DNA of 64,000 bases from Gandjariella thermophila. Its GTDB lineage: Bacteria > Actinomycetota > Actinomycetes > Mycobacteriales > Pseudonocardiaceae. Made by a program: the position numbers and the translations under genes. Below are positions 19,184 through 35,132 of this stretch, one piece after another; position 1 is the stretch's first letter; each line of letters opens with the position of its first letter. Under the pieces are notes generated by a model that ran no database searches, was not told where the DNA came from, and worked only from the letters and a program-made list of their open reading frames with translations. The DNA lies in the NCBI RefSeq assembly GCF_005405885.1, contig NZ_BJFL01000025.1, positions 1 to 64,000 on the forward strand, written 5' to 3'.

Positions 19184-20611
19184 TTGAACCCGCCGTCGAG
19201 CGACGACACCGTCCGCCTGGCCACCGTCGGTCAGGTGCTCCGCGGGCGCTGGCGCGTGCTCACCGTGCTCACCGTGGTGGGCGCGCTCGCCGGCTTCGGT
19301 GCCTCGCTGGTGCTGTCGCCGGGCTACGCGACCTCGGCGACCGTGCTGCTGCAGGGACCCCGGCAGGCCGACGAACTGCTCACCGAGGCCGAGGTGGCGA
19401 CCAGTTCGGTGGTGCTGGACCGGGCGGCCGCCGCGCTCGGCTGGCGGGTCACCGGCGTCGAGCTGCAGAAGTCGGTGATCGCCAAGGTGGCCGGCGGCAA
19501 CGTCATCCAGATCACCGGTGAGGCCGACACCCCGGAGCGGGCGCAACGGCTCACCGACCAGGTGGCCCAGCAGTTCGTCCGGTTCTCCACCCAGCTCGTC
19601 TCCAACACCGGGGACGCCTCGGCGCAGGTCGCGCAGGAGCAGCGCGAGGCGCTGCGGCAGCAGGTCGCGCAGACCAACCAGCGCATCATCGACCTGGCCA
19701 AGTCGGCCAACCAGGGGCAGACCGTGGAGAGCGTGCAGGCCCGCACCCAACTCGAGGCGCTGCGCACCGCGCTGAACCAGGCCATGAACGCCCTCGACCA
19801 GGCCGACGCGGCGACCGGCCGGGCGAACATGGTGCTGATGGGCGGGTCCGAGCGGCCCACCAGCCAGGCGCCGCCGACCCGGGTGCAACTGATCGCCGCC
19901 GGCGCGCTGCTGTTCCTCGTGCTCGGCGTGATCGGTCACCTCTTCGCGGCCCGCGCCGACCGCCGGCTGCGCAACCCGGCGGAGATCGCCGCCGCGCTCG
20001 ACGCCGCGCCGCTGGGCAGCGTCGACGTGCCCGGCGGGGACGCCGGGGACCGGCCGCGCGCCCCGGGCCCCGGCGGCCGGATCCGCCGGCTGCTGGGCAT
20101 GGACACGCCGTGGCACCTGCCCCGACTGCCGGCCTCCGGTGACGACCGCAGCCGGCACATCCGCTACCGGCGCGTGCTGACCCGGCTCCGGGACGGCGCG
20201 CCGGCCGCCCGCCGGGTGCTGCTGGTCGTCCCGGACGACGACCCGATCGCCCGAGGGGCGGCGGGTCACCTGGCCGCCGTGGCCGACCCGCCCGGCGAGG
20301 CCAACGGCGCCGCCCGGCCCGGGCCGCAGCTGCGGGTTGCCGAGGTCACCGCCGACCAGCCCGCCGTGCCCGACCTCGCGGACGTCTCCGGCGTCCTGGT
20401 CGTGGTCACCGCCGGCACCCGCACCGCGTGGGAACTCGTCGGCATCACCGAGGCGTGCGCCGACGCCGGTCACCACGTGGTCGGCGCCGTCGTCGCCCAC
20501 CCGGCCGGGAAAACCTCGCGCCGCCCGGCGGCACCCGCGCCGCCCGTGCGGCCCACCGAACCCATTCCGACACACGACGTCGGCGGCACGATGATGGCAG
20601 GTTCCGCGTGA
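19184..20611 (+). CDS. Polysaccharide copolymerase (Wzz/CapA-like) with degenerate C-terminal ATPase region
   Basis: 475 residues from a TTG at 19184 preceded by GGGGGAGG. The first membrane segment (VLTVLTVVGALAGFGASLVL, about 24-43) and the second (LIAAGALLFLVLGVIGHLF, about 230-248) flank an extracytoplasmic stretch with a coiled-coil-like, Gln-rich part (QREALRQQVAQTNQRIIDLA). This is the Wzz/copolymerase layout that sets chain length. The cytoplasmic C-terminal half looks like a worn-down P-loop domain (VLLVVPDDDPIARGAAGHL) with no Walker A. It is coupled by GTGA overlap to a second copy of the same type. Confidence 0.8.
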   Translation: MNPPSSDDTVRLATVGQVLRGRWRVLTVLTVVGALAGFGASLVLSPGYATSATVLLQGPRQADELLTEAEVATSSVVLDRAAAALGWRVTGVELQKSVIAKVAGGNVIQITGEADTPERAQRLTDQVAQQFVRFSTQLVSNTGDASAQVAQEQREALRQQVAQTNQRIIDLAKSANQGQTVESVQARTQLEALRTALNQAMNALDQADAATGRANMVLMGGSERPTSQAPPTRVQLIAAGALLFLVLGVIGHLFAARADRRLRNPAEIAAALDAAPLGSVDVPGGDAGDRPRAPGPGGRIRRLLGMDTPWHLPRLPASGDDRSRHIRYRRVLTRLRDGAPAARRVLLVVPDDDPIARGAAGHLAAVADPPGEANGAARPGPQLRVAEVTADQPAVPDLADVSGVLVVVTAGTRTAWELVGITEACADAGHHVVGAVVAHPAGKTSRRPAAPAPPVRPTEPIPTHDVGGTMMAGSA

Positions 20612-22230
20612 CGACAAGCGGTATTCCAGGCGGCGCGCAGGCCGGTACACCCGGCGCCGCCCCGGCGGCCCAGCCGCTGCTGGACCTGCAGCGGCTGGTG
20701 GTCGCGGTGCGGCGGCGCCGCCGGTTCTGGCTGTCCTGCGCGCTGCTGGGCCTGCTCGCCGGCGCCGCGGTCGCGGTGCTCGTGCCGTCCCCGCCCACCG
20801 CGACCGCCAAGCTGCTCGTGGCGCACCAGGCCGACCAGGCAAACGACGCCGGCACGCTGATCCGGACCGATGTCGCGGTGCTGGAGACCACCCGGATCGC
20901 CGGCGCGGCGCTGCAGGCGCTGCACTCCGACCAGCGCCCCGAGGACTTCCTCAAGGACTACACCGGCAGCGGGCTGACCAACAACGTTCTGCAGATCACC
21001 GTGCAGGCGAGCAGCGCGGCGGAGGCGGTGGCCAGGGCCGGGGCACTGGCCGACGCGTTCATCGCGGACCACGTGCGGCGGATGAAGGACGCTGCCGGCG
21101 CGCAGGCCCAGGCCCTGGTCGACCAGCGCGACCAGGCGCGGGCCGAACTGTCCAAGGTGGACGCGGCGATCGCGGACGCCACGTCCAGGGGCAGCAGGAC
21201 CACCCCGGGCGACCTGGAGGCGCTCTACGCCCGCCGCGCCGAGCTGACCTCGCAGATCTCCGACTTCGGCCGGCGCGCCGACGAGGCCCGGATCGGCACG
21301 CCCCAGGTCGCCGCCGGCACGCAGATCGTGGACGCCCCGCGGCTGCAGCGCCGCTCGCTGGCCAGGGCCGGCGCCACGGACGCCGGTATCGGTCTCGCGC
21401 TGGGCCTGGTGATGGGCCTCGCCGTGACCGCGGTCGGCACCGTGGTGCGGGACCGCCCGCTGCTGCGCCGGGAGATCGCGGCCAACCTGGGCGCGTCGGT
21501 GATCGCGCAACTGCCGGCGGCGCGCCGCGGGCTGGCCCTGCCGTGGCGGCGTTCCCGGGCACGCGACGAACGCCGGCGGGCCGCCGCCACCCTCGCCCGC
21601 GCCGTGCGTGGCTTCCCGGGAGCCGGCGGCATGGCCGGGTCGGTGTCCGTGCTGGAGCTGGGCTGCGCGCGCACCGCCGCCGCGCTCGCCATGGACCTGG
21701 CCGAGCAGCTCGCCCTGGACGGGCCGGTGGTGGTCGTCGACGACCTGCCCGGCCGAGACCTCGGCCGGCTCGGCCGCGGGCCGGAACGCCCGATCCGGAT
21801 GGTGGACGGCGGTGAGCTTTCCCCCGGCCACCCCGCCGACCACCGGGAGCGCCAGGTCGGCGTCGGCTCGGTCGCGCCCGGCACCGCGTGGACGGACCTC
21901 GGACACCTCGGCGCGGAGACCCTGCTCGTGGTCCGCGCCGGGCACGGCAGCACCGCGTGGCTGCACACCGTCGCCCGCCAGCTCGCCGACCTGCGTATCC
22001 CGGTGATCGGAGTGGTCCTGGTCGACCCCGACCCGCGGGACCGCACCGACGGCACCCTCTGGGACGAGCTGCACATCGCGCTGCGCGGCCGCGCCGCCCG
22101 CCGGCCAGCGGCACCCCGGCTGGCCGAGCGGCCGGCGGAACGCCCGGCCGGCTCACCGGCCGAGATAGCGACCGAACTGCCCACCGTGAAGTTCGCCCCG
22201 GTCCGGGCCACCGACGTGGAGGTCTCGTAA
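20608..22230 (+). CDS. Second polysaccharide copolymerase with degenerate tyrosine-kinase-like domain
   Basis: 540 residues. Membrane segments at about 42-62 (FWLSCALLGLLAGAAVAVLV) and about 260-280 (GIGLALGLVMGLAVTAVGTVV) enclose an extracytoplasmic coiled-coil region (QALVDQRDQARAELSKVDA). The cytoplasmic part follows the outline of a BY-kinase: VSVLELGCARTAAALAMDLA aligns where VSS..PGEGKSTTA.NLA is expected, and VVVVDDLPGRD sits at the Walker A' position. The GKS/T needed for ATP is missing, and no Tyr cluster is present at the C terminus. It is probably a structural co-polymerase rather than a kinase. GTG start overlaps the preceding paralogue by 4 bp. Confidence 0.8.
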   Translation: MTTSGIPGGAQAGTPGAAPAAQPLLDLQRLVVAVRRRRRFWLSCALLGLLAGAAVAVLVPSPPTATAKLLVAHQADQANDAGTLIRTDVAVLETTRIAGAALQALHSDQRPEDFLKDYTGSGLTNNVLQITVQASSAAEAVARAGALADAFIADHVRRMKDAAGAQAQALVDQRDQARAELSKVDAAIADATSRGSRTTPGDLEALYARRAELTSQISDFGRRADEARIGTPQVAAGTQIVDAPRLQRRSLARAGATDAGIGLALGLVMGLAVTAVGTVVRDRPLLRREIAANLGASVIAQLPAARRGLALPWRRSRARDERRRAAATLARAVRGFPGAGGMAGSVSVLELGCARTAAALAMDLAEQLALDGPVVVVDDLPGRDLGRLGRGPERPIRMVDGGELSPGHPADHRERQVGVGSVAPGTAWTDLGHLGAETLLVVRAGHGSTAWLHTVARQLADLRIPVIGVVLVDPDPRDRTDGTLWDELHIALRGRAARRPAAPRLAERPAERPAGSPAEIATELPTVKFAPVRATDVEVS

Positions 22231-22234
22231 GCGC

Positions 22235-24145
22235 ATGTGCGGCATCGCAGGCACCTACCGCTGGCCGGACGGCGGCCCGCTGACCGACCGGCTCACCGAC
22301 ATCCTGGCCCACCGCGGCCCCGACGGGGCCGGGCGGTACCACCACCCCGCCGGGGACGGCGAGGTCCACCTGGGACACCGCCGGCTGGCCATCGTCGACC
22401 TGTCCGAGGCCGGCGCCCAGCCGATGGTCTCCGGCGGTCTCGCCCTGTCCTACAACGGCGAGCTGTACAACGCGCCGGAGCTGCGCGCCGAACTCGCAGC
22501 CGCCGGGGTCCGCTTCCGAGGCAGCTCGGACACCGAGGTGTTGCTGGAGGCGTGGCGACGCTGGGGCATCGGCTGCCTGCCCCGACTGCGCGGCATGTTC
22601 GCCTTCGCCGTGTTCGACGAGCGCAGCGGGGAGCTGGTGCTGGCGCGCGACCAGCTCGGTATCAAGCCGCTGTTCCTGCTGCGCCGCGGCGGCGGGCTGG
22701 TGTTCGCCTCCGAGCTCAAGGCGCTGGCCGCCGCGCTCGGCGGGTCGCTCCAGGTGGACCACGCCGCGCTGGTCGCCTCGCTGCTGTACTACTGGGTGCC
22801 GGACTCCCGGTGCGCGTTCCGCGGCGCGGAGAAGCTGCCGCCGGGAAGCTGGCTGCGCTGCCGGCCGGACGGCCGGGTGGAGCGCGGCCGGTTCTGGTCG
22901 CTGCGCGACGTCGCCGCCGAGGCGCAGGACGGCCCGGTGCCGGACCTGGCCGCGGTGGTCGAGGACGCCACCCGGCGGCACCTGCTCGCCGACGTGCCGG
23001 TCGCGACGTTCCTCTCCGGCGGCCTGGACTCGAGCTACCTGACCGCGCTCGCCGCCCGCCACTCGCCCGGCATCTCCGCGTACACCATCGGGTTCCGCGC
23101 CGAGGACACCCGGTTCGAGGCGATGCCGGACGACCTGCGCTACGCGCGGCGGGTGGCCGAGCGGTTCGGCGTCCAGCTGCACGAGATCGAGATCGCGCCG
23201 CGGGTGCTGGACCTGCTGCCGAAGATGACCTACCACCTGGACGAGCCGATCGGCGACCCCGCCGCGATCAACACCTTCCTGATCTGCACCGCCGCCCGGG
23301 AGGCCGGGGTCAAGGTGATGCTGTCCGGGATGGGCGCCGACGAGCTGTTCGCCGGATACCGCAAGCACCTGGCCAACCTGCTCGCGCTGCGCTACCAGCG
23401 CGTCCCCCGCGCCGTCCGAAGGGGACTGTCGGCGGCGGTGGACCGGCTGCCGGTGGCCAGCTCCCGGCGCGGGTACCGGTCGGTGCGCTTCGCCAAGCGG
23501 TTCCTGTCCTTCGCCGAGCTGCCCGAGGAGACCGCGTTCCGGCGCAGCTACACCATGTACGACCGGCGGGAACTGCTCGACCTGGTCAACCCGGACCTGG
23601 CGTCCACAGTGGACGACGTGCTCGCCGAGCACGCGGACACCTACCACGACAACGCCCTGGAGGACTTCGTCAACCGGATGTGCCTGGCCGACGCGCGGCT
23701 GTTCTTGCCCGGCCTGAACCTGGCCTACACCGACCGGTCCAGCATGGCCGCGTCCACCGAGGTGCGGGTGCCGTTCGTGGACGTCGAGGTGGTGAGGGCG
23801 GCGTTCGCCGTCCCGGGCAAACGCAAGATCGTCGGCCGGCAGGGCAAGGCGGCACTCAAGCGTGCCGCCACGTCGATCCTGCCCGCCGAGATCGTGTACC
23901 GGCCCAAGGGACTGTTCAGCGCGCCGCTGCGGGCGTGGATGAGCCGCGACCTGGCGCCGCTGGTCCGCGAGGTGGTGCAAAACGGGGTGCTGGTGCGGTC
24001 CGGGCTGCTGCGCCGGGAGGCGCTGCACCGCCTGGTCGCCGAGGACGCCGCCGGGCAGCAGGACCGGTCGAAGCATCTCTGGCACGTGCTGACCCTCGAG
24101 CACTGGTACCGCGCCGCGACCACATCAGTGCGCCAGGCCGCATAA
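22235..24145 (+). CDS. asnB: AsnB-like glutamine amidotransferase of the polysaccharide locus
   Basis: 636 residues. Cys2 of MCGIAGTY is the glutaminase nucleophile, followed by AHRGPDGAGRY, LGHRRLAIVDLS and SYNGELYNAPELR. The synthetase domain has the PP-loop FLSGGLDSSYLTA (about residue 260) and LSGMGADELFAGYRKH. All catalytic parts of asparagine synthetase are therefore present. Inside O-antigen and capsule loci, members of this family (WbpS-type) are proposed to amidate uronic acids instead of making asparagine. Placement a few genes after the AlgD-like dehydrogenase supports that reading here, as inference. It starts 5 bp after the copolymerase gene. Confidence 0.88.
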   Translation: MCGIAGTYRWPDGGPLTDRLTDILAHRGPDGAGRYHHPAGDGEVHLGHRRLAIVDLSEAGAQPMVSGGLALSYNGELYNAPELRAELAAAGVRFRGSSDTEVLLEAWRRWGIGCLPRLRGMFAFAVFDERSGELVLARDQLGIKPLFLLRRGGGLVFASELKALAAALGGSLQVDHAALVASLLYYWVPDSRCAFRGAEKLPPGSWLRCRPDGRVERGRFWSLRDVAAEAQDGPVPDLAAVVEDATRRHLLADVPVATFLSGGLDSSYLTALAARHSPGISAYTIGFRAEDTRFEAMPDDLRYARRVAERFGVQLHEIEIAPRVLDLLPKMTYHLDEPIGDPAAINTFLICTAAREAGVKVMLSGMGADELFAGYRKHLANLLALRYQRVPRAVRRGLSAAVDRLPVASSRRGYRSVRFAKRFLSFAELPEETAFRRSYTMYDRRELLDLVNPDLASTVDDVLAEHADTYHDNALEDFVNRMCLADARLFLPGLNLAYTDRSSMAASTEVRVPFVDVEVVRAAFAVPGKRKIVGRQGKAALKRAATSILPAEIVYRPKGLFSAPLRAWMSRDLAPLVREVVQNGVLVRSGLLRREALHRLVAEDAAGQQDRSKHLWHVLTLEHWYRAATTSVRQAA

Positions 24146-24160: not shown

Positions 24161-26332
24161 GTGAAGCAGGTTGTGCAGAACTACAAGAGCGGCGAGCTGA
24201 CGCTGCTCGACGTGCCGGTGCCGGCGTGCAAACCGGGCGGCGTGCTGGTCCGGTCCGCCTTCTCGCTGATCTCCACCGGCACGGAGATGATGAAGGTGTC
24301 CGAGGCCGGCATGTCCATGCTGGGCAAGGCCCGCTCCCGGCCGGACCAGGTCGCCAAGGTCATGCAGAGCGTGGCCACCAACGGGGTGGCCGCCACCTAC
24401 CGCAAGGTGATCAACCGGCTGGACTCCTACACGCCGCTCGGCTACTCGCTGGCCGGCGTGGTGGAGCAGGTCGGCGCGGGCATCGAGGACGTGGCCGTCG
24501 GCGACCTGGTGGCCTGCGCCGGCAACGAGCACGCGCTGCACTCCGAGCTGAACTGGGTGCCGAGGAATCTCTACGCGCCGGTGCCGGCCGGCCTGGCGGC
24601 CCGGCACGCTGCGTTCGGCACCGTCGGCTCCATCGCGCTGCAGGGCGTCCGCCGCGGCGAGCCGCAGCTCGGGGACGTAACGCTGGTCATCGGGCTCGGG
24701 CTGATCGGGCAGCTGGTGGTGCAGTTGCTCACCGCCTCGGGCGCCCGGGTGGTCGGCGTCGACCCGGACCCGGCCCGCTGCACGCTTGCCGCGCGGCTGG
24801 GCGCGGTGGCCTGCGGCGACCCCGGCTCGGCGGCGGTGCAGAGCGCGGTCGCCGACCTCACCGGCGGGCGCGGGGTGGACCAGGTGTACCTGGCCGCCGG
24901 CGGCGGCAGCAACGAGCCGGTGGAGCTGGCCGCCCGGTTGAGCCGGGACCGAGGCCGGGTGGTCGACATCGGCAAGTGCCGCCTCGACCTGCCGTGGAAC
25001 GCCTACTACGAGAAGGAGCTGGACGTCCGGTTCTCCCGCTCCTACGGGCCGGGCCGCTACGACCCCGAGTACGAGCTGAACGGCCGGGACTACCCGATCG
25101 GGTACGTGCGCTGGACCGAGCGCCGCAACCTCGCGTGCTTCCTCGACCTGGTGGCCCGCGGCCGGGTCGACGTCGAGCCGCTGATCTCGCACGTGGCCGA
25201 CTTCGACACCGCGGTGGACACCTACCAGCGGCTCGCCGCCGGCGAGCTGAAGGCGGTCGCCGTGCTGTTCCGCTACCCCGACGGCGAGTCCACAGTGGAG
25301 CATCCCGCGCTCACCGTGCCGGTGGCGCGCAACGGCCACGTCCGGCGCCCGGCGCGGTCGGCCACGGTGCGGGTCGCCTTCGTCGGCGCGGGCAACTACG
25401 CGTCCTCCATGCTGCTGCCGCACCTGGTGGAGCGGGACGACGTGGAACTCCGCCAGGTGGTGACCACGTCCGCGCTGTCCGCGGCGAACGCCCGGCGCAA
25501 GTTCGGCTTCGCCACCGCGTCCACCGACCTGGACGCCATGCTCGCCGACCCCGCGGTCGACGCGGTGTTCGTGGTGACCCGGCACAGCTCGCACGCCGCG
25601 CTGACCAGGCGGGCGCTGCTGGCCGGCAAGGCGGTGTTCGTGGAGAAACCGCTGGCGCTGACCGAATCCGAGCTGGCCGACGTGCTCGCCGCTGTCGAGG
25701 AGTCCGGCAACGACCGGCTGCAGGTCGGTTTCAACCGCCGCTTCGCGCCGCTGCTGCGCGAGGCCGTGGACCGCTTCGGCGCGCGCGTCGGCCCGGCGTC
25801 GGTGCGCTACCTGGTCAACGCCGGCCGGCTCGAGCAGGGGAGCTGGTACGCGCAGCAGGACAGGGAGGGGTCCCGGTTCACCGGCGAGGGCGGGCACTTC
25901 GTCGACACGGTGAGCTGGCTGCTCGCCGCCGACCCGACCTCGGTGTACGCCGCCGCCACCCCCGGCCACCACGACCTGCAGGTGGTGCTGCGGTATCCCG
26001 CCGGGTCCACCGCCACGATCAGCTACGTCACCAGTGGAGCGGCCAGCTTCCCCAAGGAGACGCTGGACCTGGTCGCGGACGGCAAGGTGCTGCGGTTCGA
26101 CGACTTCGCCCGCGCCTCGGTGTACGGCCGCGGGCGGTGGACCAGCTCGCGGCTGCCGCGCGGGCGGGACAAGGGCCAGCGCGCCGAACTGGACGCCTTC
26201 CTCGACGCGGTGCGCACCGGCGCGCCGATGCCGGTGTCGCTGGACTCGCTGGCCGCCACCACCGCGGCCACCCTGGCGGTGCGGACCAGCCTGGCCACCG
26301 GGGTGCCGGTGAAGCTGGAGCGCACCCGATGA
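24161..26332 (+). CDS. Bi-domain oxidoreductase: MDR (zinc-type alcohol dehydrogenase fold) fused to Gfo/Idh/MocA
   Basis: 723 residues. Residues 1-375 are an MDR domain (GYSLAGVVEQVGAGIEDVAVGD, then VTLVIGLGLIGQLVVQLL as nucleotide-binding site). Residues 400-723 are a Gfo/Idh/MocA domain with a second Rossmann motif (VRVAFVGAGNYASS), VFVEKPLALTESE with the catalytic Lys, and GEGGHFVDTVSWL. Two dinucleotide-binding domains in one chain suggest consecutive redox steps on one sugar. This fusion is known mainly from O-antigen and exopolysaccharide loci, next to heparinase-fold genes as here, but its reaction is not established to my knowledge. Good RBS (AAGGGAGCG); its stop overlaps the next start (ATGA). 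Confidence 0.88.
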   Translation: MKQVVQNYKSGELTLLDVPVPACKPGGVLVRSAFSLISTGTEMMKVSEAGMSMLGKARSRPDQVAKVMQSVATNGVAATYRKVINRLDSYTPLGYSLAGVVEQVGAGIEDVAVGDLVACAGNEHALHSELNWVPRNLYAPVPAGLAARHAAFGTVGSIALQGVRRGEPQLGDVTLVIGLGLIGQLVVQLLTASGARVVGVDPDPARCTLAARLGAVACGDPGSAAVQSAVADLTGGRGVDQVYLAAGGGSNEPVELAARLSRDRGRVVDIGKCRLDLPWNAYYEKELDVRFSRSYGPGRYDPEYELNGRDYPIGYVRWTERRNLACFLDLVARGRVDVEPLISHVADFDTAVDTYQRLAAGELKAVAVLFRYPDGESTVEHPALTVPVARNGHVRRPARSATVRVAFVGAGNYASSMLLPHLVERDDVELRQVVTTSALSAANARRKFGFATASTDLDAMLADPAVDAVFVVTRHSSHAALTRRALLAGKAVFVEKPLALTESELADVLAAVEESGNDRLQVGFNRRFAPLLREAVDRFGARVGPASVRYLVNAGRLEQGSWYAQQDREGSRFTGEGGHFVDTVSWLLAADPTSVYAAATPGHHDLQVVLRYPAGSTATISYVTSGAASFPKETLDLVADGKVLRFDDFARASVYGRGRWTSSRLPRGRDKGQRAELDAFLDAVRTGAPMPVSLDSLAATTAATLAVRTSLATGVPVKLERTR

Positions 26333-28275
26333 CGAGCCCCGGCTGGTACCTGCGCCGGCTGTCCCGGATGGGGCCCGCCGAGATCGCCGGCCGCGCCGGT
26401 GACACGCTGCGCAAGCGCCGGTGGCGCGCGGCCCCGCCGGCCTGCCCCGCCGCGCCGGGCGCCCGGTTCGGTGCGACGCTGCCGGACCGGGCGCTCGCCG
26501 GAATCCCGGCGGACGCGGCGAAGCGGCTGGTCGCCACCGCGGACCGGCTGATGGACGGGCACGCCGAGTACTTCGGCGTGGCCCGCGCCGACATGGTGGC
26601 GCCGGACTGGGCGTACGATCCGAAGACGCATCGCCGCGCCCCGTCCGGCTACGCCTTCGACATCCCGTACCGGGACGAGGACACCGTCGGCGACATCAAG
26701 CAGATCTGGGAACCGTCCCGGCACCAGCACCTCACCGTGCTGGCCGCGGCGTACGCGGTCACCGGCAACGACCGGTACGCCGCCCGGGTCGCCGAGCACC
26801 TGCGGTCCTGGTGGGCGGACAACCCGCCGCTGCGCGGGGTGCACTGGGTCAGCGGTATCGAGCTGGGCATCCGCCTGCTGTCCTGGGTGTGGGCGCGCCG
26901 GCTGCTGCACGGCTGGCCGGGGGCGGCCGCGCTATTCGAGGGCAACCCGGTGGCGCGGCACCAGATCTGGCACCACCAGCGCTGGCTGGCCGCGTTCGGA
27001 AGCCGTGGATCGTCGGCGAACAACCACGTCATCGCCGAGGCCGCCGGGCAGCTCGCGGCCGCCTGCGCGTTCCCGTGGTTCCCGCAGTCGCGGCGGTGGC
27101 GGGCGGCCGCGCTGCGCGCACTGGACGTCCACCTGCGCCGCAACACGTTCCTGTCCGGGCTCAACCGCGAGCTGGCCACCGAGTACCACGGCCTGGTGCT
27201 GGAGCTGGGCCTGGCCGCGGTGGCCGAGGCGGACGCCGCCGGAGTTCCGGTGCCGGCGACCACCCGGCTGGTGTTGCTGCGGATGACCGACGCGCTGGCG
27301 TCCATCGTGGACGGTCGGCTGCGGCCGCCCCGGCAGGGCGACGCGGACGACGGCCACGGGCTGGTCCTGGACGGCACCGGCACCGACCGCTGGGCCTCGC
27401 TGCTGGCCACCGGGGAGGCGGTGTTCGGCCGGCTGGACTGGTGGCCGCGCCCCAGCGGTACCGACGCCCGCACCCCGCTGCTGGCCACGCTGCTCCGCCG
27501 GTCCAGCCCGGCGCGCACCCGCCCGGCGAGCCGGCCGGCGCACTTCCCCGACGCGGGCATGACCATCCTGCGCGCGGGGGAGGTGTGGTGCCGCTGCGAC
27601 GGCGGGCCGCACGGCTTCCTGTCCATCGCCGCGCACGCGCACGCCGACGCGCTGTCGCTGGAGGTGCGGCACGACGGCGTGGACGTGCTCGCCGACCCGG
27701 GAACGTTCTGCTACCACGGCCAGCCCGAGTGGCGGCGGTACTTCCGTTCCACGATCGGCCACAACACCCTGGAACTGGACGGGCGGGACCAGTCGGTCTC
27801 CGGCGGCCCGTTCCTGTGGACCCGGCAGGCACGCAGCCGGGTGCTGGTCGCGGAGACACCGGAGCATGGCGTCGCCCGCTGGTGCGCGGAGCACGACGGG
27901 TACGCGCCGGCGGTGCACCGGCGCTGGGTGGAACTCGACGGCGCCCGGCGGGAACTGCGGGTGTTCGACGAGATCCGCGGGCCGCGCTCGGCGGGCCGGC
28001 GGGTACGGCTGGCCTTCCACCTCGGTCCCGCGGTCGCCGCGTCCCTTTCCGGCACCCGGGCGACGCTGACCTGGAGCAGGGACGGCGCGGAGCGCTCCGC
28101 CGCGCTCGACCTGCCGGAGGGCCTTTCCTGGCGGGCGCACCGCGGGGACACCGATCCGCCGCTGGGCTGGTACTCCGCGGGCTTCGGGCGCAAGGAACCG
28201 GCGACGGTGCTCGTCGGGACGGGGCCGACCGGTGCCGCCGGCGGGTTCGCCACCGTGCTGCGGTTCGACGGGTAG
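26329..28275 (+). CDS. Heparinase II/III-fold (alginate lyase-like) protein
   Basis: 648 residues. An (alpha/alpha) toroid N-terminal domain (about 80-370) is followed by a beta-sandwich domain (about 390-640). Candidate catalytic residues of this polysaccharide lyase fold are present: Asn in SSANNHVIAEA (about 230), Tyr in RELATEYHGLVLE (about 284) and His in AHAHADALSLEV (about 434). No signal peptide is visible, so the protein appears cytoplasmic. That is unlike degradative lyases and fits the locus-associated branch whose role may be editing or proofreading. With an AlgD-like gene upstream, a uronate-containing substrate is a reasonable inference. ATG overlaps the bi-domain gene by 4 bp. 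Confidence 0.85.
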   Translation: MTSPGWYLRRLSRMGPAEIAGRAGDTLRKRRWRAAPPACPAAPGARFGATLPDRALAGIPADAAKRLVATADRLMDGHAEYFGVARADMVAPDWAYDPKTHRRAPSGYAFDIPYRDEDTVGDIKQIWEPSRHQHLTVLAAAYAVTGNDRYAARVAEHLRSWWADNPPLRGVHWVSGIELGIRLLSWVWARRLLHGWPGAAALFEGNPVARHQIWHHQRWLAAFGSRGSSANNHVIAEAAGQLAAACAFPWFPQSRRWRAAALRALDVHLRRNTFLSGLNRELATEYHGLVLELGLAAVAEADAAGVPVPATTRLVLLRMTDALASIVDGRLRPPRQGDADDGHGLVLDGTGTDRWASLLATGEAVFGRLDWWPRPSGTDARTPLLATLLRRSSPARTRPASRPAHFPDAGMTILRAGEVWCRCDGGPHGFLSIAAHAHADALSLEVRHDGVDVLADPGTFCYHGQPEWRRYFRSTIGHNTLELDGRDQSVSGGPFLWTRQARSRVLVAETPEHGVARWCAEHDGYAPAVHRRWVELDGARRELRVFDEIRGPRSAGRRVRLAFHLGPAVAASLSGTRATLTWSRDGAERSAALDLPEGLSWRAHRGDTDPPLGWYSAGFGRKEPATVLVGTGPTGAAGGFATVLRFDG

Positions 28276-28284
28276 GAGGGCGTC

Positions 28285-29823
28285 GTGAACGGGCTGCTGC
28301 GGACCGCCGGCGGGCGCTGGCGCGCGGCGCTGCTCGCCGTGCTGGCACCGCTGGTGGTGGCCGGGTGCTCGACCACCCCGGAGGCGAGCGTCGCGCCGAC
28401 GGTGAACTCCTCGGGGTCGCCGGCCCCGGCCGCCGCCGCGGTGTGCGACCGGATGCCGCCCGGTCCGACGACCGCACCGGCCGGTGCGGTCACCGTCGAC
28501 CCGGCCGTGCCGGGCGACCTGGCCGCGAAGACGCAGGCCAGCCCGGCCGGGACGACGTTCTGGCTGGCACCGGGCACGCACCGGCTGCCCGACGACCGGT
28601 ACGCCCAGGTCACCCCGAAGGACGGGGACACCTACCTCGGGGCGCCCGGAGCGGTGCTGGACGGCCGGCGGATCAACCAGTACGCCTTCGCCGGCGCCGC
28701 CCGCGACGTCACCATCCGCAACCTCACCGTGCAGGGCTTCGTCGCCCCGCGCGACGAGGGCGTGGTCAACCACGACTCGGCGGACGGCTGGGTGGTCGAG
28801 CACAGCACTATCCAGCACAACGCCGGCGCCGGGCTGATGGCCGGCGCCCACCAGCGGGTCCGCGGCGACTGCCTGCGCGGCAACGGGCAGTACGGCATGA
28901 ACGCCTACCAGGAACGCGGCGGCATCACCGGGCTGGTGGTCGAGGGCAACGAGATCGTCGGCAACAACGCCGACGACTGGGAGAGTCGGGAACCGGGCTG
29001 CGGCTGCACTGGCGGCGTGAAGTTCTGGGCCGTCGACGGCGCGGACGTGCGCGGCAACTGGGTGCACGACAACCGGGGCGCCGGGCTGTGGGCGGACACC
29101 GACGACAACGACTTCCTCGTCGAGGGCAACCTCATCGAGGCCAACGACGGCGCCGCGATCATCTACGAGGCCAGCTACAACGCGGTCATCCGGAACAACA
29201 CCATCCGCAGGAACAACTGGGTGGACGGCCGCCGGTACGCCGACCGGGGCGACAGCTTCCCGGTGGCCACCGTCTACGTGTCCGAGTCGGGCGGTGAACC
29301 ACGCGTGCGGGCCCGCACGGACAGGCTCGACATCTCCGCGAACACGCTGGAGGACAACTGGTCCGGGATCACCCTGTGGGAGAACGCCGACCGGTTCTGC
29401 AACAGCCCGGCCAACACCTCCAGCGGAAGCTGCACGCTGCTCGTGCCGGACAGGTCCCGGTGCACGCAGCCGGCGATCGACACCGCCCCGCTGCGCGACG
29501 ACTGCCGGTGGAAGACGCAGCGGGTGGACATCCACGGCAACCGGTTCACGCTGGACACCTCGGTGGTCGGCTGCGAGGTCACCTGCGGCCGGATGGCGTT
29601 GCTGGCCAACTTCGGCAGCTACCCGGACTGGTCGCCGTACCGGGGCGACGGCGTCGAGCAGGCGATCATCGCCCGCCAGGACAACCGCTGGCACGACAAC
29701 GCCTACGTCGGCCCGTGGACGTTCGTCGCGCACGACACCAGCCAGGTGCTCGACCACCTGCAGTGGCAGGCCGCGCCGTACCAGCAGGACCAGGGCAGCA
29801 CGTTCACCCGGGGCGGTGGCTGA
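28285..29823 (+). CDS. Lipoprotein with right-handed parallel beta-helix
   Basis: 512 residues from a GTG at 28285. The signal peptide ends in a lipobox, LVVAGCS (Cys27). After a Ser/Thr/Pro/Ala-rich linker, the body shows repeated helix rungs typical of NosD/pectate-lyase-like folds: AARDVTIRNLTVQGF, ITGLVVEGNEIVGN, GADVRGNWVHDNRG, NAVIRNNTIRRNN, LDISANTLEDNW. Such proteins bind, cleave or epimerise acidic polysaccharides; AlgG/AlgE epimerases and AlgX-associated factors are examples of the fold, but no specific active site could be matched. It would act on the outer face of the membrane. It starts 9 bp after the heparinase-fold gene and ends 1 bp before wzy. Confidence 0.82.
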   Translation: MNGLLRTAGGRWRAALLAVLAPLVVAGCSTTPEASVAPTVNSSGSPAPAAAAVCDRMPPGPTTAPAGAVTVDPAVPGDLAAKTQASPAGTTFWLAPGTHRLPDDRYAQVTPKDGDTYLGAPGAVLDGRRINQYAFAGAARDVTIRNLTVQGFVAPRDEGVVNHDSADGWVVEHSTIQHNAGAGLMAGAHQRVRGDCLRGNGQYGMNAYQERGGITGLVVEGNEIVGNNADDWESREPGCGCTGGVKFWAVDGADVRGNWVHDNRGAGLWADTDDNDFLVEGNLIEANDGAAIIYEASYNAVIRNNTIRRNNWVDGRRYADRGDSFPVATVYVSESGGEPRVRARTDRLDISANTLEDNWSGITLWENADRFCNSPANTSSGSCTLLVPDRSRCTQPAIDTAPLRDDCRWKTQRVDIHGNRFTLDTSVVGCEVTCGRMALLANFGSYPDWSPYRGDGVEQAIIARQDNRWHDNAYVGPWTFVAHDTSQVLDHLQWQAAPYQQDQGSTFTRGGG

Positions 29824-29824
29824 C

Positions 29825-31057
29825 ATGGCCGTCGAGTCCACCGGCGTCGCGTACCGCACCGCGAGCCGACCCGAACCGGGAGCGCGGCCTCGGGTGCCGC
29901 GGTTGGCCGGCGTGGCGTGGGCGCTGCTGATCCTCAACACGCTCGGCTCGGCCGGCGCGAAGACGATCGTGCCGCTGCCCCGCTCGCTCATCCAGCTGGC
30001 CACGATGGGCTCGCTGGTCACCGCGTTCGCGCTGGCGCTGCTGCTCAACCCGCGGCTGCGGGTGCGGCCCAGCGCCTACCTGTTCCTGCTCAGCCTGCTG
30101 CTCGCGGTGAGCGTGATCTCCAGCGCGCACCTGGAGTCGGGGCTCGGCGCGCTGTTCCGCTGCGCCAGGTTCGCCCTGTTCGTCGCCACCCTGTGGCTGC
30201 TCAGCCGCTGGTGGGACGGTGACCTGACGTTCGTCCGGTACCACATCCGGATGTTCGGCGCGGTGCTCGCCTCGGTAGCGGCCGGGTTGGTGATCTCGCC
30301 CGGCGCGGCCATGCCGGACCTCTACGGCGGCCGGCTGGTCGGCGCGCTGTGGCCGCTCACCCCGCCGCAGGTCGGGCAGTACGCCGCCGTGATCGCCGGG
30401 CTGACCGTGCTGCTCCTGCTGGGCCGGCGCACCGACCGGTGGAGCGCCGTGGTGGTGATCGTGCCGTCGATGGTGCTGCTCCTGCTGACCCACACTCGCA
30501 CGGCCACGGTCGGCATGCTCGTCGGGCTGGCCGTGGCGATCGGCTCGCTGCTGCTGACCAGTGCCCGCGCGCGCCGGCTGTTCGCCTGGACGGTGCCGTG
30601 CGCCGGGGTGGCCGCGGTCGCGCTCGGGCCGGTGCTGCAGGCGTGGTTCCTTCGCGGGCAGAGCGAGGAGAACTTCTCCAGCCTCACCGGCCGGGCCAAG
30701 GTGTGGGACGCCCTGCTCGCCGCGCCCCGCACCACCACCGAGCAGGTGTTCGGCGTCGGCCTGGGGGACAAGTCCTTCGGCGGGCTGCCGATCGACAACA
30801 GCTGGCTGGCCGTCTACAACGAGCAGGGCTTCGCCGGCATCACCCTGGTCGCGGCGTTCCTCGTGGTGCTCGTGCTGGTCGCCGTGCTGCGACCGCCGTC
30901 GCTGGCAAGGGCGTGCGCGATCTTCCTGATCACCTACTGCGTCACCGCCTCCTACACCGAGGCGGGGCTGGGCGACGCGTCCCCGTACCTGCTGCACCTC
31001 GCCGTCGCCGCCGCGCTGCTCGCCCTGCCAGCCGCACCCGAACCGGAGGTGACATGA
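29825..31057 (+). CDS. Wzy/O-antigen ligase-family polysaccharide polymerase
   Basis: 410 residues, about 11-12 hydrophobic segments. The large extracytoplasmic loop carries a Wzy_C-like pattern (FSSLTGRAKVWDALLAA, then GVGLGDKSFGGLPIDNSWL), with the conserved R and an H/D-rich end replaced by the D-N-S form common in actinobacteria. Wzy polymerises lipid-linked repeats on the outer face. Together with the flippase at 37462 and the two copolymerases it makes the export route Wzx/Wzy-dependent. ATG at 29825 lies one base after the lipoprotein stop; the gene's own stop overlaps the next start (ATGA). Confidence 0.82.
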   Translation: MAVESTGVAYRTASRPEPGARPRVPRLAGVAWALLILNTLGSAGAKTIVPLPRSLIQLATMGSLVTAFALALLLNPRLRVRPSAYLFLLSLLLAVSVISSAHLESGLGALFRCARFALFVATLWLLSRWWDGDLTFVRYHIRMFGAVLASVAAGLVISPGAAMPDLYGGRLVGALWPLTPPQVGQYAAVIAGLTVLLLLGRRTDRWSAVVVIVPSMVLLLLTHTRTATVGMLVGLAVAIGSLLLTSARARRLFAWTVPCAGVAAVALGPVLQAWFLRGQSEENFSSLTGRAKVWDALLAAPRTTTEQVFGVGLGDKSFGGLPIDNSWLAVYNEQGFAGITLVAAFLVVLVLVAVLRPPSLARACAIFLITYCVTASYTEAGLGDASPYLLHLAVAAALLALPAAPEPEVT

Positions 31058-32256
31058 AGGTCCTGGTGGTGCACAACCGGTACCGGTCGGCGCAGCCGAG
31101 CGGCGAGAACAACGTGGTCGACCGGGAGGTGGCGCTGCTGCGCGACGCCGGCCACGACGTCGACCTGTTCGAGCGGCGCAGCGACGACATCGCCGGCCGG
31201 TCCCTGCTCGGCCGGGCCGCGGTACCGCTGCTGGTGCCGTGGAATCCGGCCGCCCGCCGGGAACTCGCCGCCCGGCTGCGCGCCGAGGCGCCAGACGTGG
31301 TGCACGTGCACAACACGTTCCCGCTGCTGTCGCCGTCGGTGCTGGCCGCGTGCGCCGGCGCGGGCGTGCCCACGGTGGCCACCCTCCACAACTACGGGCA
31401 GGTGTGCCCGCCCGGCACGCTGCACCGGGACGGCCGGACGTGCACCGAATGCGTCGGCGGCACGCCGCTGCCGGCGATCCGGCACGGCTGCTACCGGGAT
31501 TCCCCGCTGGCTACCGCGCCGGTGGCGGTCGGCCTGGCCGCCAACCGCCGCCGCTGGTGGTCGACCGTGGCCCGGTTCTTCTGCATCTCCGCGGCGCAGC
31601 GGGACATCCTGCGCCGGGCCGGCATGCCGGCCGCGAAGCTGGCGGTGAAGCACAACTTCGTGCCGGACCCTGGTGTCCGCCGCGCGGGCACCGGCGAGCA
31701 CGTGCTCTACCTCGGCCGGCTGGCCGAGGAGAAGGGCGTCGGACTGCTGATGGCCGCGTGGGACCAACTCGCCGCCGCCGGCGGGTTGGGCGTGCCGCTG
31801 GCCATCGCCGGCGCCGGGCCGCTGCAAGCCGCGGTGGCGCGGTGGGCGGCGGGCCGGGACGACGTGCGGTACCTGGGCCTGCGCGACACCGCGGCCTGCC
31901 GCGACCTGCTGTCCCGGTCGGTGGCCGTGGTGGCGCCGTCCACCTGGCTGGAGGCGTTCGGGCTGGTGGTGGTGGAGGCGATGGCGGCGGGTGTGCCCGC
32001 GGTCGCCGCCGGGCACGGCGCCTTCGCGGAACTGGTCGAGGACGGCGTGACCGGGTTGCTGCACGCACCCGGCGACGCCGGCTCGCTCGCGTCCTGCCTG
32101 CGCCGGGTGGCGGCCGCGCCGGCGCGGAACCGGGAGATGGGTGCGGCCGCCCGGCGCCGCTACGAACGGGACTTCACCCCCGCGGTCGGGCTGGACCGGC
32201 TGCTCGCCGGCTACCGCGCGGCCATCGCCGGGGAAACCGTCGGGGAGCGCGCATGA
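31054..32256 (+). CDS. Glycosyltransferase family 4
   Basis: 400 residues, GT-B. The N-terminal domain has VLVVHNRYRSAQPSGENNVV and VVHVHNTFPLLSPSVL plus a Cys-containing insertion (YGQVCPPGTLHRDGRTCTEC, with GCYRD after it) that is typical of a GT4 subgroup. The C-terminal domain has YLGRLAEEKGVGLLM and STWLEAFGLVVVEAMAAGVP, a full EX7E motif. A cytoplasmic transferase extending the repeat unit; sugar specificity unknown. It is the last gene before a 199-bp break in the otherwise overlapping operon. Confidence 0.88.
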   Translation: MKVLVVHNRYRSAQPSGENNVVDREVALLRDAGHDVDLFERRSDDIAGRSLLGRAAVPLLVPWNPAARRELAARLRAEAPDVVHVHNTFPLLSPSVLAACAGAGVPTVATLHNYGQVCPPGTLHRDGRTCTECVGGTPLPAIRHGCYRDSPLATAPVAVGLAANRRRWWSTVARFFCISAAQRDILRRAGMPAAKLAVKHNFVPDPGVRRAGTGEHVLYLGRLAEEKGVGLLMAAWDQLAAAGGLGVPLAIAGAGPLQAAVARWAAGRDDVRYLGLRDTAACRDLLSRSVAVVAPSTWLEAFGLVVVEAMAAGVPAVAAGHGAFAELVEDGVTGLLHAPGDAGSLASCLRRVAAAPARNREMGAAARRRYERDFTPAVGLDRLLAGYRAAIAGETVGERA

Positions 32257-32455
32257 TACCGGCGACGCTCCCGTTCAACGGGGGAATTTTCGGGTCTTGT
32301 GGCCCTGGTTCGCGGCGTGGCCGAGCGCCGCGGCGACGCTTTTCCGGAATGGCCGGGTATCGCCGGTCAAAACGTGTAACAAGGGTCCCGTGTTCGGCGA
32401 CTTAACCGAGGGGATGCCCGCGCGCCGCCTGGCGCGGGCAAAAAGGAGCCTGTCG
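32257..32455 (+). promoter_or_regulatory. 199-bp leader with hairpin splitting the polysaccharide operon
   Basis: This is the only sizeable gap in the 28-kb run of genes and is lower in GC than its flanks. Its 3' end carries a 9-bp stem TGCCCGCGC / GCGCGGGCA (32415-32440) placed directly before AAAAAGGAG, the Shine-Dalgarno of the methyltransferase gene. No ORF with recognisable content lies in it. It may hold a promoter for the second half and a structure affecting translation. Confidence 0.45.
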
Positions 32456-33691
32456 ATGACGAAATGCCGACTCTGCGGTTCGTCGAGCCTGGCCAGCGTG
32501 GTGGATCTCGGGGCGACACCGCCCTGCGAGAGTTTTCTCACGGCGGACCAACTCGACCAGCCTGAACTGACCTACCCGTTACACCTGCGGGTCTGTACGG
32601 AGTGCTGGCTGGCGCAGATTCCTCCGCTGATCACGCCGGAGGAAACATTCACCCAGTATGCCTATTTTTCGTCGTACTCCACCTCCTGGGTGGAGCACGC
32701 ACGAAACTTTGTCGACGGCGCCGTGGAAAGGCTCGGGCTCGGCCCGGATTCCTTCGTGGTGGAGGTCGCCAGCAATGACGGGTACCTGCTGAGGCACGTG
32801 GTCGCTCGCGGTATTCGCTGCCTCGGCGTCGAGCCGTCCGTGAACGTCGGCCAGGCCGCGCGGGACGCGGGTGTCCCCACGCTGACCGCGTTCCTGCATC
32901 CGGGCACCGGTGCGGCGGTCCGCGCCGAGCACGGCCCCGCCGAGCTGGTGGTGGCGAACAACGTCTACGCGCACATCCCCGACGTGGTCGGATTCACCCG
33001 CGGGCTGCGCGCCCTGGTCGCCGACGACGGCTGGGTGTCGATCGAAGTGCAGCACCTGCTCACGCTGATCGAGCGCAACCAGTTCGACACGATCTACCAC
33101 GAACACTTCCAGTACTACACGGTGGCCTCCGCGGCGCGCGCGCTGGCCAGCGGCGGGCTGAGCCTGGTGGACGTCGAACTGCTGCCCACCCACGGCGGCT
33201 CCATCCGGCTGTGGGCCCGGCCGGCCGAGGCCGCCGGTGAGCCGAGCGCGCGGATGGTCGACGTGCTGGCCCGGGAGAAGGCCGCCGGACTGCGGGAACT
33301 GTCCGGCTACGCCGAGTTCGCCGCCCGGGTCGCCAGGGTGCGCGGGGACCTGCTGCGCTTCCTGGTCGACGCGGCCGGCCGCGGCGAGACGGTGGTCGGC
33401 TACGGCGCCCCGGGCAAGGGCAACACGCTGCTCAACCACTGCGGCATCCGGCCCGACCTGCTCGCCTACACGGTCGACCGCAACCCGTACAAGCACGGCC
33501 GGTACACGCCGGGCACCCGGATTCCCATCCTGCCGCCCGAGCGGATCGCCGCCGACAAGCCGGACTACGTGCTCGTCCTCCCGTGGAACCTGCGCGAGGA
33601 ACTCACCGACCAACTGTCCTTTGTGCACACCTGGGGCGGCCGGCTGGTCTTCCCGATTCCGGAGCTGGAGATCGTGGAGGTGAAGCCGTGA
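32456..33691 (+). CDS. NDP-sugar C-methyltransferase (TylC3/three-domain SAM methyltransferase type)
   Basis: 411 residues with the three-part layout of deoxysugar C-methyltransferases. The N-terminal zinc module has CRLCGSS (Cys4, Cys7) and a second pair CTECW; a central SAM domain has VVEVASNDGYLLRHV; the C-terminal Rossmann-like domain has VVGYGAPGKGNTLLN. Related enzymes add a branched methyl group to C-3 of 4-keto sugars. The ATG at 32456 follows AAAAAGGAG. It heads a second set of overlapping genes, with a nucleotidyltransferase directly after it (GTGA overlap), so it probably acts on the sugar nucleotide made there. Confidence 0.87.
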   Translation: MTKCRLCGSSSLASVVDLGATPPCESFLTADQLDQPELTYPLHLRVCTECWLAQIPPLITPEETFTQYAYFSSYSTSWVEHARNFVDGAVERLGLGPDSFVVEVASNDGYLLRHVVARGIRCLGVEPSVNVGQAARDAGVPTLTAFLHPGTGAAVRAEHGPAELVVANNVYAHIPDVVGFTRGLRALVADDGWVSIEVQHLLTLIERNQFDTIYHEHFQYYTVASAARALASGGLSLVDVELLPTHGGSIRLWARPAEAAGEPSARMVDVLAREKAAGLRELSGYAEFAARVARVRGDLLRFLVDAAGRGETVVGYGAPGKGNTLLNHCGIRPDLLAYTVDRNPYKHGRYTPGTRIPILPPERIAADKPDYVLVLPWNLREELTDQLSFVHTWGGRLVFPIPELEIVEVKP

Positions 33692-34485
33692 AGGTCGTCC
33701 TGTTCTGCGGCGGGTACGGCATGCGGATGCGCAGCGGCGCGTCGGACGACGTGCCCAAACCGATGGCGATGGTCGGCCCGCGACCGCTGATCTGGCATGT
33801 GATGCGCTACTACGCGCACTTCGGGCACACCGACTTCATCCTGTGCCTCGGCTACGGCGCGCACCACATCAAGAACTTCTTCCTCACCTACGAGGAGACC
33901 ACCTCCAACGACTTCGTGCTCCGCGGCGGCAGGGCGGAGCTGCTGTCCACCGACATCTCCGACTGGTCGATCACCTTCGTGCAGACCGGGATCGAGTCGG
34001 CGATCGGGGAGCGGCTGCGCCGGGTGCGCGAGTACCTGGACGGCGACGAGATGTTTCTCGCCAACTACGCGGACGTGCTCACCGACGCCCCGCTGCCGGA
34101 GATGATCGACCGGTTCGCGGCGCGGGACGCCGGCGCGTCGATGATGGTGGTGCCGCCGCAGTCGTCGTTCCACTGCGTCGAGATGACCGAGGACGGCATG
34201 GTCGGCGGGATCACCGCGGTCAGCGACATGCCGCTGTGGGAGAACGGCGGCTACTTCGTGCTCCGCCAGGAGGTGTTCGACCACATTCCGGAGAACGGCG
34301 ACCTGGTCGCCGACGGGTGCGCCGAGCTGGCCAAGCGCGGCCGGCTGCTCGCCTACCCGTACCGCGGGTTCTGGAAGCCGACCGACACGGTCAAGGAGCG
34401 GTTCGCGCTCGACGCCGCGTACTCCCGCGGCGAGCGCCCGTGGGCGCTGTGGGAACGCGACCACGCCACGGTGAGGACGGCGTGA
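33688..34485 (+). CDS. Sugar-1-phosphate nucleotidyltransferase, glucose-1-phosphate cytidylyltransferase type
   Basis: 265 residues. The N terminus VVLFCGGYGMRMR replaces the common LAGGxGTRL. It continues with VPKPMAMVGPRPLIWHVMRYY and FILCLGYGAHHIKNFF, which match RfbF-type glucose-1-phosphate cytidylyltransferases (KPM..IG..PILWHIMK..., ICCGYKG..IK.YF). NGGYFVLRQEVFDHI and GFWKPTDTVKERFAL also fit. It would activate a hexose-1-phosphate, probably with CTP, to feed the methyltransferase, SDR and epimerase genes beside it. The altered signature loop (GYGM for GLGT) makes the exact nucleotide and sugar uncertain. GTG start and stop both overlap neighbours (GTGA). Confidence 0.85.
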   Translation: MKVVLFCGGYGMRMRSGASDDVPKPMAMVGPRPLIWHVMRYYAHFGHTDFILCLGYGAHHIKNFFLTYEETTSNDFVLRGGRAELLSTDISDWSITFVQTGIESAIGERLRRVREYLDGDEMFLANYADVLTDAPLPEMIDRFAARDAGASMMVVPPQSSFHCVEMTEDGMVGGITAVSDMPLWENGGYFVLRQEVFDHIPENGDLVADGCAELAKRGRLLAYPYRGFWKPTDTVKERFALDAAYSRGERPWALWERDHATVRTA

Positions 34486-35129
34486 TCCGGCTCGGGGCGT
34501 CCCGGCTGGACTCGGTGGTCGCGCTCGGCGCGCACTGCGACGACATCGCCATCGGCGCGGGCGGCACCCTGCTGACGATCTGCACGGCGCGGCCCGGGAT
34601 CCGCGTCGACGCGCTGGTGCTCTCCGGCGGCGGCGGCGAGCGCGAGCGCGAGGAGGAGGCCGCGCTCGCTGCCTTCTGTCCCGGTGCCGGCCTGCGGCTG
34701 ACCGTGCTCAAGCTGCCCGACGGCCGGCTGCCCGCGCACTGGGACGAGGCCAAGTCCGCGGTCGAGGACCTGCGCGCCCGCACCGACCCGGACCTGGTGC
34801 TGGCCCCGCGCGCCGAGGACGCGCACCAGGACCACCGCGGGCTGGCCCGGCTGGTGACCACCGCCTTCCGCGATCACCTCGTGCTCGGCTACGAGATCGT
34901 CAAGTGGGACGCCGACCTCGGCCGGCCGGTGGCGTACCAGCCGCTGTCGGCGGAGATCGCGGAACGCAAGGCGCGGCTGCTCCAGCAGCACTACCCGTCA
35001 CAGCGGCACCGGCCCTGGTACGACCGGGAGGCCTTCCTCGGCCTGGCCCGCATCCGCGGCATCGAATGCCGCACCCGCTACGCCGAGGCGTTCTTCACCA
35101 CCAAACTGACTCTTGGCCTGGAGGGCTGA
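34482..35129 (+). CDS. PIG-L/LmbE-family deacetylase
   Basis: 215 residues. Zinc-site motifs are present: GAHCDDIAIGAGGTL near residue 17 (the AHPDDE position, with Cys for Pro and Ile for Glu, as in several sugar-cluster members) and AEDAHQDHRGLARL with the second His pair. The family removes N-acetyl groups from GlcNAc-type sugars or small molecules. In this cluster it could expose an amine on the modified sugar. It overlaps the nucleotidyltransferase gene by 4 bp and is followed after 3 bp by the SDR gene. Confidence 0.87.
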   Translation: MIRLGASRLDSVVALGAHCDDIAIGAGGTLLTICTARPGIRVDALVLSGGGGEREREEEAALAAFCPGAGLRLTVLKLPDGRLPAHWDEAKSAVEDLRARTDPDLVLAPRAEDAHQDHRGLARLVTTAFRDHLVLGYEIVKWDADLGRPVAYQPLSAEIAERKARLLQQHYPSQRHRPWYDREAFLGLARIRGIECRTRYAEAFFTTKLTLGLEG

Positions 35130-35132
35130 GAA

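Follow-up and report, generated by a model that had tools for sequence, protein, structure and literature searches.

An SCO0381-0401-type exopolysaccharide operon of Gandjariella thermophila with a putative cytoplasmic uronate-tailoring module and a separable β-helix lipoprotein

Heparinase-like genes are common in capsule and exopolysaccharide (EPS) loci, where the usual annotation is that of a lyase, an activity that seems out of place inside a biosynthetic operon. What such a protein does there is the question raised by the window studied here, 64,000 nucleotides of contig NZ_BJFL01000025.1 from Gandjariella thermophila, in which P2 (26329-28275, + strand), a cytoplasmic heparinase II/III-fold protein of 648 residues, is encoded between a double oxidoreductase, P1 (24161-26332, +), and a β-helix lipoprotein, P3 (28285-29823, +). 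An earlier note on this DNA proposed that P1 and P2 form a cytoplasmic redox/editing pair and that P3 acts at the surface on the same uronate-containing chain. It missed that the whole operon is of a known cluster type, that of SCO0381-0401 in Streptomyces coelicolor. The reading that we tentatively favor is that of an EPS operon of this type in which an AsnB-like glutamine amidotransferase, P1, and P2 constitute a cytoplasmic module for uronate tailoring, with P2 as a C5-epimerase and P3 as a separate module. The kind of locus is already known in Streptomyces; it is the reaction of P1-P2 within it that we infer.

The anticipated gene arrangement was borne out, with regard to both open reading frames and domains: a 723-residue fusion of MDR and Gfo/Idh/MocA domains, a coupled heparinase-fold gene, and a lipoprotein 9 nt further on. 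The stop codon of P1 is overlapped by the P2 ATG at 26329 in a shared ATGA (26329..26332, +), an overlap indicative of translational coupling and retained in 75 of 78 loci, while the GTG start of P3 at 28285 lies 9 nt past the P2 stop (28275). Of 100 genomes in the family, 23 contain orthologs of P1, P2, and P3, and the other 77 contain none of the three (hypergeometric p 4e-23, a statistic that ignores relatedness); in 20 of the 23, P3 immediately follows P2. When 84,980 species were searched with the P3 alignment, 80 loci were retained, assigned to Streptomyces, Kitasatospora, Streptantibioticus, or Amycolatopsis or labeled only Actinobacteria, and AsnB, P1, P2, and P3 are contiguous and in this order in 75 of the 77 actinobacterial loci that hold all four genes. 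The conserved trio of the earlier note is therefore real within the cluster type, where P1, P2, and P3 are truly co-conserved. The whole 21-gene block is order-conserved in the Streptomyces loci, however, so the conservation is not that of the trio alone.

SCO0381-0401 is known as the S. coelicolor “deoxysugar/glycosyltransferase cluster” (PMC2000904, PMC3610822), comprising 21 genes that possibly form one operon and are bldA-affected (PMC2000904), that are upregulated in multinucleated mycelium (PMC3610822), and several of which are strongly downregulated without the sigma factor SCO4117 (PMC5826349). Its listing runs through a glycosyltransferase (GT), a dehydrogenase, a hypothetical protein, two exopolysaccharide transport genes, an asparagine synthetase, a bi-domain-containing oxidoreductase, a hypothetical protein, a lipoprotein, a further hypothetical protein, a transferase, and a methyltransferase, and on to an aminomutase (PMC3610822). 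The window genes between 15233 and 42776 correspond to this cluster by annotation order, and to those of other Streptomyces by sequence; P1 is the equivalent of SCO0387 (by order and annotation), P2 of SCO0388, and P3 of SCO0389. The first three genes may be ordered differently, and the window's host is a high-GC actinobacterium of another family. The record of Streptomyces sp. KN37 has the same cluster order as the window, with annotation. No paper naming a product of SCO0381-0401 was found.

Outside the SCO0381-type cluster, the conserved unit is AsnB-P1-P2 together with uronate-forming dehydrogenases, without P3. Of 246 genomes across the phylum, 17 have P1, 23 have P2, and 14 have both (p 2e-14, again ignoring relatedness), and full-length P3 is found only alongside an SCO0381-type cluster (5 genomes). 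In genomes G184 and G141 AsnB-P1-P2 stand beside a sugar dehydrogenase and a GT with no P3, at identities to the window proteins of about 59-63% for P1 and 52-56% for P2, and AsnB adjoins P1 in these two, in G284, G263, and G043, and in Streptomyces HUAS 15-9. Gene order varies: WecB, WecC, GT, P2, P1 in G043 and G076 (with AsnB after P1 in G043); WecB, WecG, WecC, P1, AsnB in Streptomyces HUAS 15-9; WecB, WecC and, further on, P1, P2 in Sphingobium; overlapping P1/P2 followed by WecC, WecB in Parabacteroides; AsnB, P2, UGD in Deinococcus; and sugar dehydrogenase, GT, P2 in Rhizobium. UGD or WecB/WecC are neighbors in about ten separate contexts in several phyla, and nucleotide-uronate supply is the theme common to the loci, of the UDP-glucuronic acid (UDP-GlcA) type in some and the UDP-N-acetylmannosaminuronic acid (UDP-ManNAcA) type in others. 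In the window, the uronate source is a UDP-sugar dehydrogenase (16659..17975, +; SCO0382 equivalent) with UDPG_MGDP_dh N, central, and C domains, and the true third partner of P1-P2 is the AsnB-like amidotransferase (22235..24145, +; SCO0386 equivalent), in which Cys2 is present. The earlier view of P1-P2 as a conserved cytoplasmic pair of polysaccharide loci is upheld, whereas P1-P2-P3 as the minimal conserved unit was rejected because P3 is separable; the portable trio is AsnB-P1-P2, of which P3 is a frequent yet separable companion.

That the 21-gene block is kept in order, and gained or lost as a block, speaks for an explanation in which the trio are co-inherited operon members with no functional tie beyond one polymer; in genus g51, 3 of 7 sampled genomes lack P1, P2, and P3, and the remaining members hold the closest relatives. 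We consider this explanation distinctly unlikely, given that the P1-P2 tie persists in other locus architectures and other phyla, but as a null hypothesis for P3 it is close to correct.

The fold and conserved residues of P2 point to the chemistry of the module. P2 matches Hepar_II_III_N (53.9 bits, cut-off 22) and Hepar_II_III_C (169.2 bits, cut-off 24), and no Hepar_II_III_N match was obtained in control genomes. Its AF2 model, of moderate confidence (pLDDT 73), comprises an (α/α) toroid and an antiparallel β-sandwich, with a poorly modeled active-site loop (425-440), and yields Foldseek matches to HepIII (5jmd, 6.6e-20), human dermatan-sulfate (DS) epimerase 1 (6hzn, 8.2e-12), and polysaccharide lyases of families PL17 and PL35. 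The alignments used for the P2 and P3 models drew on related loci and window sequences only and are shallow in diversity (about 60-81% identity). Likeness to PL12 heparinase III and PL33, and judging by position probably also to DS-epimerase 1, extends to an Asn, a Tyr, a His, a second Tyr, and an HxH motif. Profile alignment to 4MMH/4MMI places P2 N232, Y286, and H436 on HepIII N240, Y294, and H424; the HepIII residue numbering carries an offset of 24 residues. N232-H233 (27022..27027, +) also has a His at the HepII H202 position; Y286 (27184..27186, +) is the counterpart of PL33 Y291 and, judging by position, probably of DS-epimerase 1 Y261; H436-A-H438 (27634..27642, +) adds a putative metal-site His; and Y462 (27712..27714, +), the second Tyr of a double-Tyr motif, corresponds by position to PL33 Y470 and DS-epimerase 1 Y473. 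The spacing of +26 from H436 to Y462 is the same as that from H444 to Y470 in PL33. PL33 enzymes use N238/Y291/H444 together with the second Tyr470, and PL12 enzymes use Y294 as acid/base (PMC11848413), such that each of the four catalytic residues of these families has a counterpart in P2 (N232, Y286, H436, and Y462). DS-epimerase 1 uses H205/Y261/Y473, in a site wholly common to heparinase II (PMC8006597), to which P2 H233/Y286/Y462 may correspond by position.

Across 17 actinobacterial homologs, the most distant at 25% identity, N232, H233, Y286, H436, H438, Y462, R469, R473, and H478 do not vary, and 15 of the 17 also have D456; judged by position in the sequence, H438/D456/H478 may form a metal site. 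The set N232, H233, Y286, H436, H438, and Y462 is also present in Parabacteroides. The catalytic residues that the earlier note expected close relatives to keep are thus found in all actinobacterial relatives examined. P2 differs from PL12, PL33, and DS-epimerase 1 in its low identity (~16-20% to PL12 structures, 13% to DS-epimerase 1), its place in a biosynthetic operon, and its lack of a signal peptide: the N terminus, MTSPGWYLRRLSRMGPAEIAGRAGDTLRKRRWRA, is basic and, judged by eye, has no hydrophobic signal core, so that the secreted-enzyme trait of the PL12/PL33 lyases is absent.

Deletion studies of comparable genes bear on whether P2 builds or degrades. In Vibrio vulnificus YJ016, deletion of either VV0357 (“zinc-binding dehydrogenase”) or the adjacent VV0358 (heparinase III-like) abolishes the capsule (PMC6037467). 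These resemble P1/P2 as adjacent dehydrogenase and PF07940 heparinase III-like genes near a capsule cluster, although, unlike in the window, no P3-like gene is reported (PMC6037467). In P. lipolytica, AT00_17115 is, like P2, a heparinase-family gene within a capsule (cps) operon, and its deletion gives translucent, capsule-poor colonies, a phenotype that was complemented (PMC10634453). Because capsule is lost in these deletions, a biosynthetic role is favored, and the “editing” ascribed to P2 by the earlier note is less likely than a required biosynthetic enzyme, whose deletion abolishes (V. vulnificus) or reduces (P. lipolytica) the capsule. The same results (PMC6037467, PMC10634453) argue against P2 as a true cytoplasmic β-eliminating lyase that clears mis-assembled uronate chains, since removal of a clean-up enzyme would not necessarily cost the capsule. 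The lyase explanation, which we regard as somewhat unlikely, nevertheless has in its favor that the closest solved relatives of P2 are PL12, PL17, PL33, and PL35 lyases. It also has a second version, in which P1 and P2 form an elimination/reduction pair leading to a 4-deoxy sugar, the unsaturated uronate from P2 being reduced by a zinc-less, enoyl-reductase-like MDR domain of P1.

The architecture of P1 is relevant to this version. P1 (723 residues, GTG start) carries ADH_zinc_N (residues 182-300) and GFO_IDH_MocA (residues 403-524) domains, i.e. an MDR Rossmann domain fused to a Gfo/Idh/MocA domain as in bi-domain oxidoreductases, and is 82% identical to the KN37 protein annotated as “bi-domain-containing oxidoreductase.” Motif-position mapping in 12 aligned homologs (36-100% identity) places S38 and Y95 at the zinc-ADH Cys/His positions in all 12, and E495-K496-P497, H579, and D582 are invariant; the residue pattern is identical in Sphingobium, Parabacteroides, and Thalassospira. 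The C-terminal half has the EKP lysine and downstream catalytic-type His (H579) of the Gfo/Idh/MocA family. With S38 and Y95 at the zinc-ligand places, the MDR half of P1 should not be a zinc dehydrogenase, and assignment of P1 as a zinc alcohol dehydrogenase was rejected since the catalytic Cys/His zinc ligands are absent. The absence of zinc ligands, as in C=C-reducing MDR enzymes, and the start/stop coupling of P1 and P2 are consistent with an elimination/reduction pair; against it, P2 occurs without P1 in Rhizobium and Deinococcus.

Several observations weigh against P2 as a C5-epimerase. The conserved residues cannot tell an epimerase from a lyase, heparinase II and DS-epimerase sharing the site (PMC8006597), and no assayed reaction for any enzyme of the P2 subfamily was found in the literature. 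VV0357/VV0358 are likened to P1/P2 by description rather than by sequence, although they appear to be the same pair. A Deinococcus P2 homolog encoded beside AsnB and UGD is without N232/H233/Y286, and the Sphingobium homolog is without the HxH motif; catalysis by a P2-type site is therefore not universal. Such homologs, in like loci but without part of the catalytic set, would be explained if P2 were a non-catalytic scaffold or binding protein for a lipid-linked glycan, its fold recruited from a lyase, yet the invariance of six residues in the 17 actinobacterial sequences and in Parabacteroides renders this very improbable for P2. The Deinococcus homolog, encoded on a plasmid of Deinococcus aetherius (L194:9611-11611) with no P1 nearby, has lost the catalytic Asn/His/Tyr and retains the HxH and second Tyr.

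P3 (512 residues, GTG start) is a right-handed β-helix protein (Beta_helix, PF13229) with a V-A-G-C lipobox and Cys28 (28366..28368, +) as the predicted lipidation site. The best Foldseek matches of its AF2 model (pLDDT 79) are the AlgE6/AlgE4 epimerases (5e-5) and RbmB (1.8e-4), with modest TM-scores of 0.34-0.38 by query; a phmmer search of the PDB with P3 returned low-complexity chance matches only. P3 shares its fold with the Vibrio polysaccharide (VPS) lyase RbmB and the mannuronan C5-epimerases AlgE/AlgG, and RbmB is, like P3, associated with the locus for its own matrix polysaccharide. P3 differs from all three in its lipid anchor and low identity (10-14%), and from AlgE/AlgG in having no DPH(D) motif: a profile alignment with AlgG, itself weak (E 0.4), puts the AlgG DPH on N206-A207-Y208, and only 1 of 64 P3 homologs has DPH. 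A straightforward AlgG-type epimerase was rejected on the absence of this motif. The earlier note was right as to the fold of P3, but its alginate-type epimerase or lyase is not supported, the DPHD motif of AlgG/AlgE being missing. The invariant residues K246, H261, D271, E295, and E334 are candidates for lining a groove, as are the largely conserved R340/R344. The most likely target of P3 is the exported polymer, on which it would be a binding protein, lyase, or epimerase.

The separability of P3 bears on whether all three genes serve one uronate chain, with P1-P2 as cytoplasmic editors and P3 as a surface lyase or C5-epimerase. The contiguity of P1-P2-P3 in 75 of 77 actinobacterial loci and 20 of 23 family genomes, and the nearness of the P3 fold to AlgE epimerases and RbmB, are in line with this arrangement. 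However, other AsnB-P1-P2 loci have no P3, a P3 homolog stands alone in Nonomuraea, the AlgG DPH is replaced, and the TM-scores are modest; the single-chain arrangement is quite improbable. Overall, the interpretation in the earlier note is supported in part. P3 has changed position in three family members (G040, G052, and G083), where its identity falls to 42-48%, and it is duplicated in several members of the family and in Amycolatopsis. Extra P3 paralogs lie by an inverted second cluster half in family members and Amycolatopsis (L184:14370-17155, L183:1120-2613, and L080:15657-18604), and the Nonomuraea gerenzanensis homolog (L196:11956-13758, 58% identity) has no EPS genes around it.

Taken together, the neighboring uronate supply, intact C5-proton site, amidotransferase, and lack of a signal peptide make cytoplasmic uronate tailoring the best reading, with P2 most likely a C5-epimerase and less likely a lyase. 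What we infer, beyond the gene arrangement, co-conservation, folds, and conserved residues described above, is the substrate, the C5 chemistry, the order of the steps, and the place of action. The UDP-sugar dehydrogenase would make the nucleotide uronate, and AsnB, P1, and P2 would form a cytoplasmic, probably membrane-associated module that remodels it before or while the repeat unit is on its lipid carrier. The Asn/Tyr/His/Tyr site of P2 may abstract the uronate C5 proton and most likely re-protonates the opposite face, i.e. C5-epimerization as by DS-epimerase of the same fold, instead of eliminating the 4-substituent. P1 would perform redox chemistry on the same residue or a neighbor, and AsnB may amidate the uronate carboxylate. 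VPS carries a glycine-amidated L-guluronate-type residue (PMC11637428), which we mention as analogy only and do not use as homology evidence; no paper on a heparinase, amidotransferase, or N-acetyl-L-gulosaminuronic acid (L-GulNAcA) in connection with V. cholerae vps was found. P3, as a separate module, would sit outside the membrane as a lipoprotein and either bind the exported polymer or modify it, as a β-helix lyase, epimerase, or binding protein.

The remaining genes are those of polymer assembly. A polyprenyl-phosphate sugar transferase (15233..16618, +; Bac_transf domain) is predicted to start the repeat unit, two Wzz-like chain-length proteins (19184..22230, +) are annotated as Wzz in Streptomyces KN37, and a GT is also among the genes upstream of P1. 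Directly after P3 lies a Wzy/ligase-like membrane protein (29825..31057, +), with Wzy_C below cut-off and an O-antigen ligase annotation in KN37. The rest of the SCO0381-0401-type cluster (31054..42776, +) has the same order in locus L195 and in Streptomyces loci and encodes a GT, C-methyltransferase, nucleotidyltransferase, PIG-L protein, epimerase, DUF4910 peptidase-like protein, flippase, second GT, pyruvyl transferase, RmlC, and class III aminotransferase. Within it, a cassette conserved with the cluster (32453-37465) comprises the C-methyltransferase, nucleotidyltransferase, PIG-L deacetylase, NAD epimerase, and DUF4910/DUF2172/HTH_47 (M28 peptidase-like) protein, the last an unexplained presence in sugar synthesis. 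A polysaccharide pyruvyl transferase is encoded at 39665-40903, and the polymer therefore probably bears pyruvate ketals. PADLOC returned no defense match, and a promoter/terminator scan found none, as expected for high-GC actinobacteria.

The conserved set of AsnB, double oxidoreductase, and uronate dehydrogenase, with an intact C5-proton site, offers a testable assignment for P2 as a C5-epimerase or eliminase. In a broader proposal, which we regard as speculative and on balance unlikely, AsnB-P1-P2 would be a module portable across phyla in which P2 acts as a cytoplasmic C5-epimerase making L-uronates on nucleotide- or lipid-linked sugars, e.g. L-iduronate-type residues from GlcA and L-GulNAcA-type residues from ManNAcA, with P1 providing redox chemistry and AsnB an amide cap. 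If true, this would be the first known defined biosynthetic reaction for the “heparinase II/III” proteins of capsule and EPS loci.

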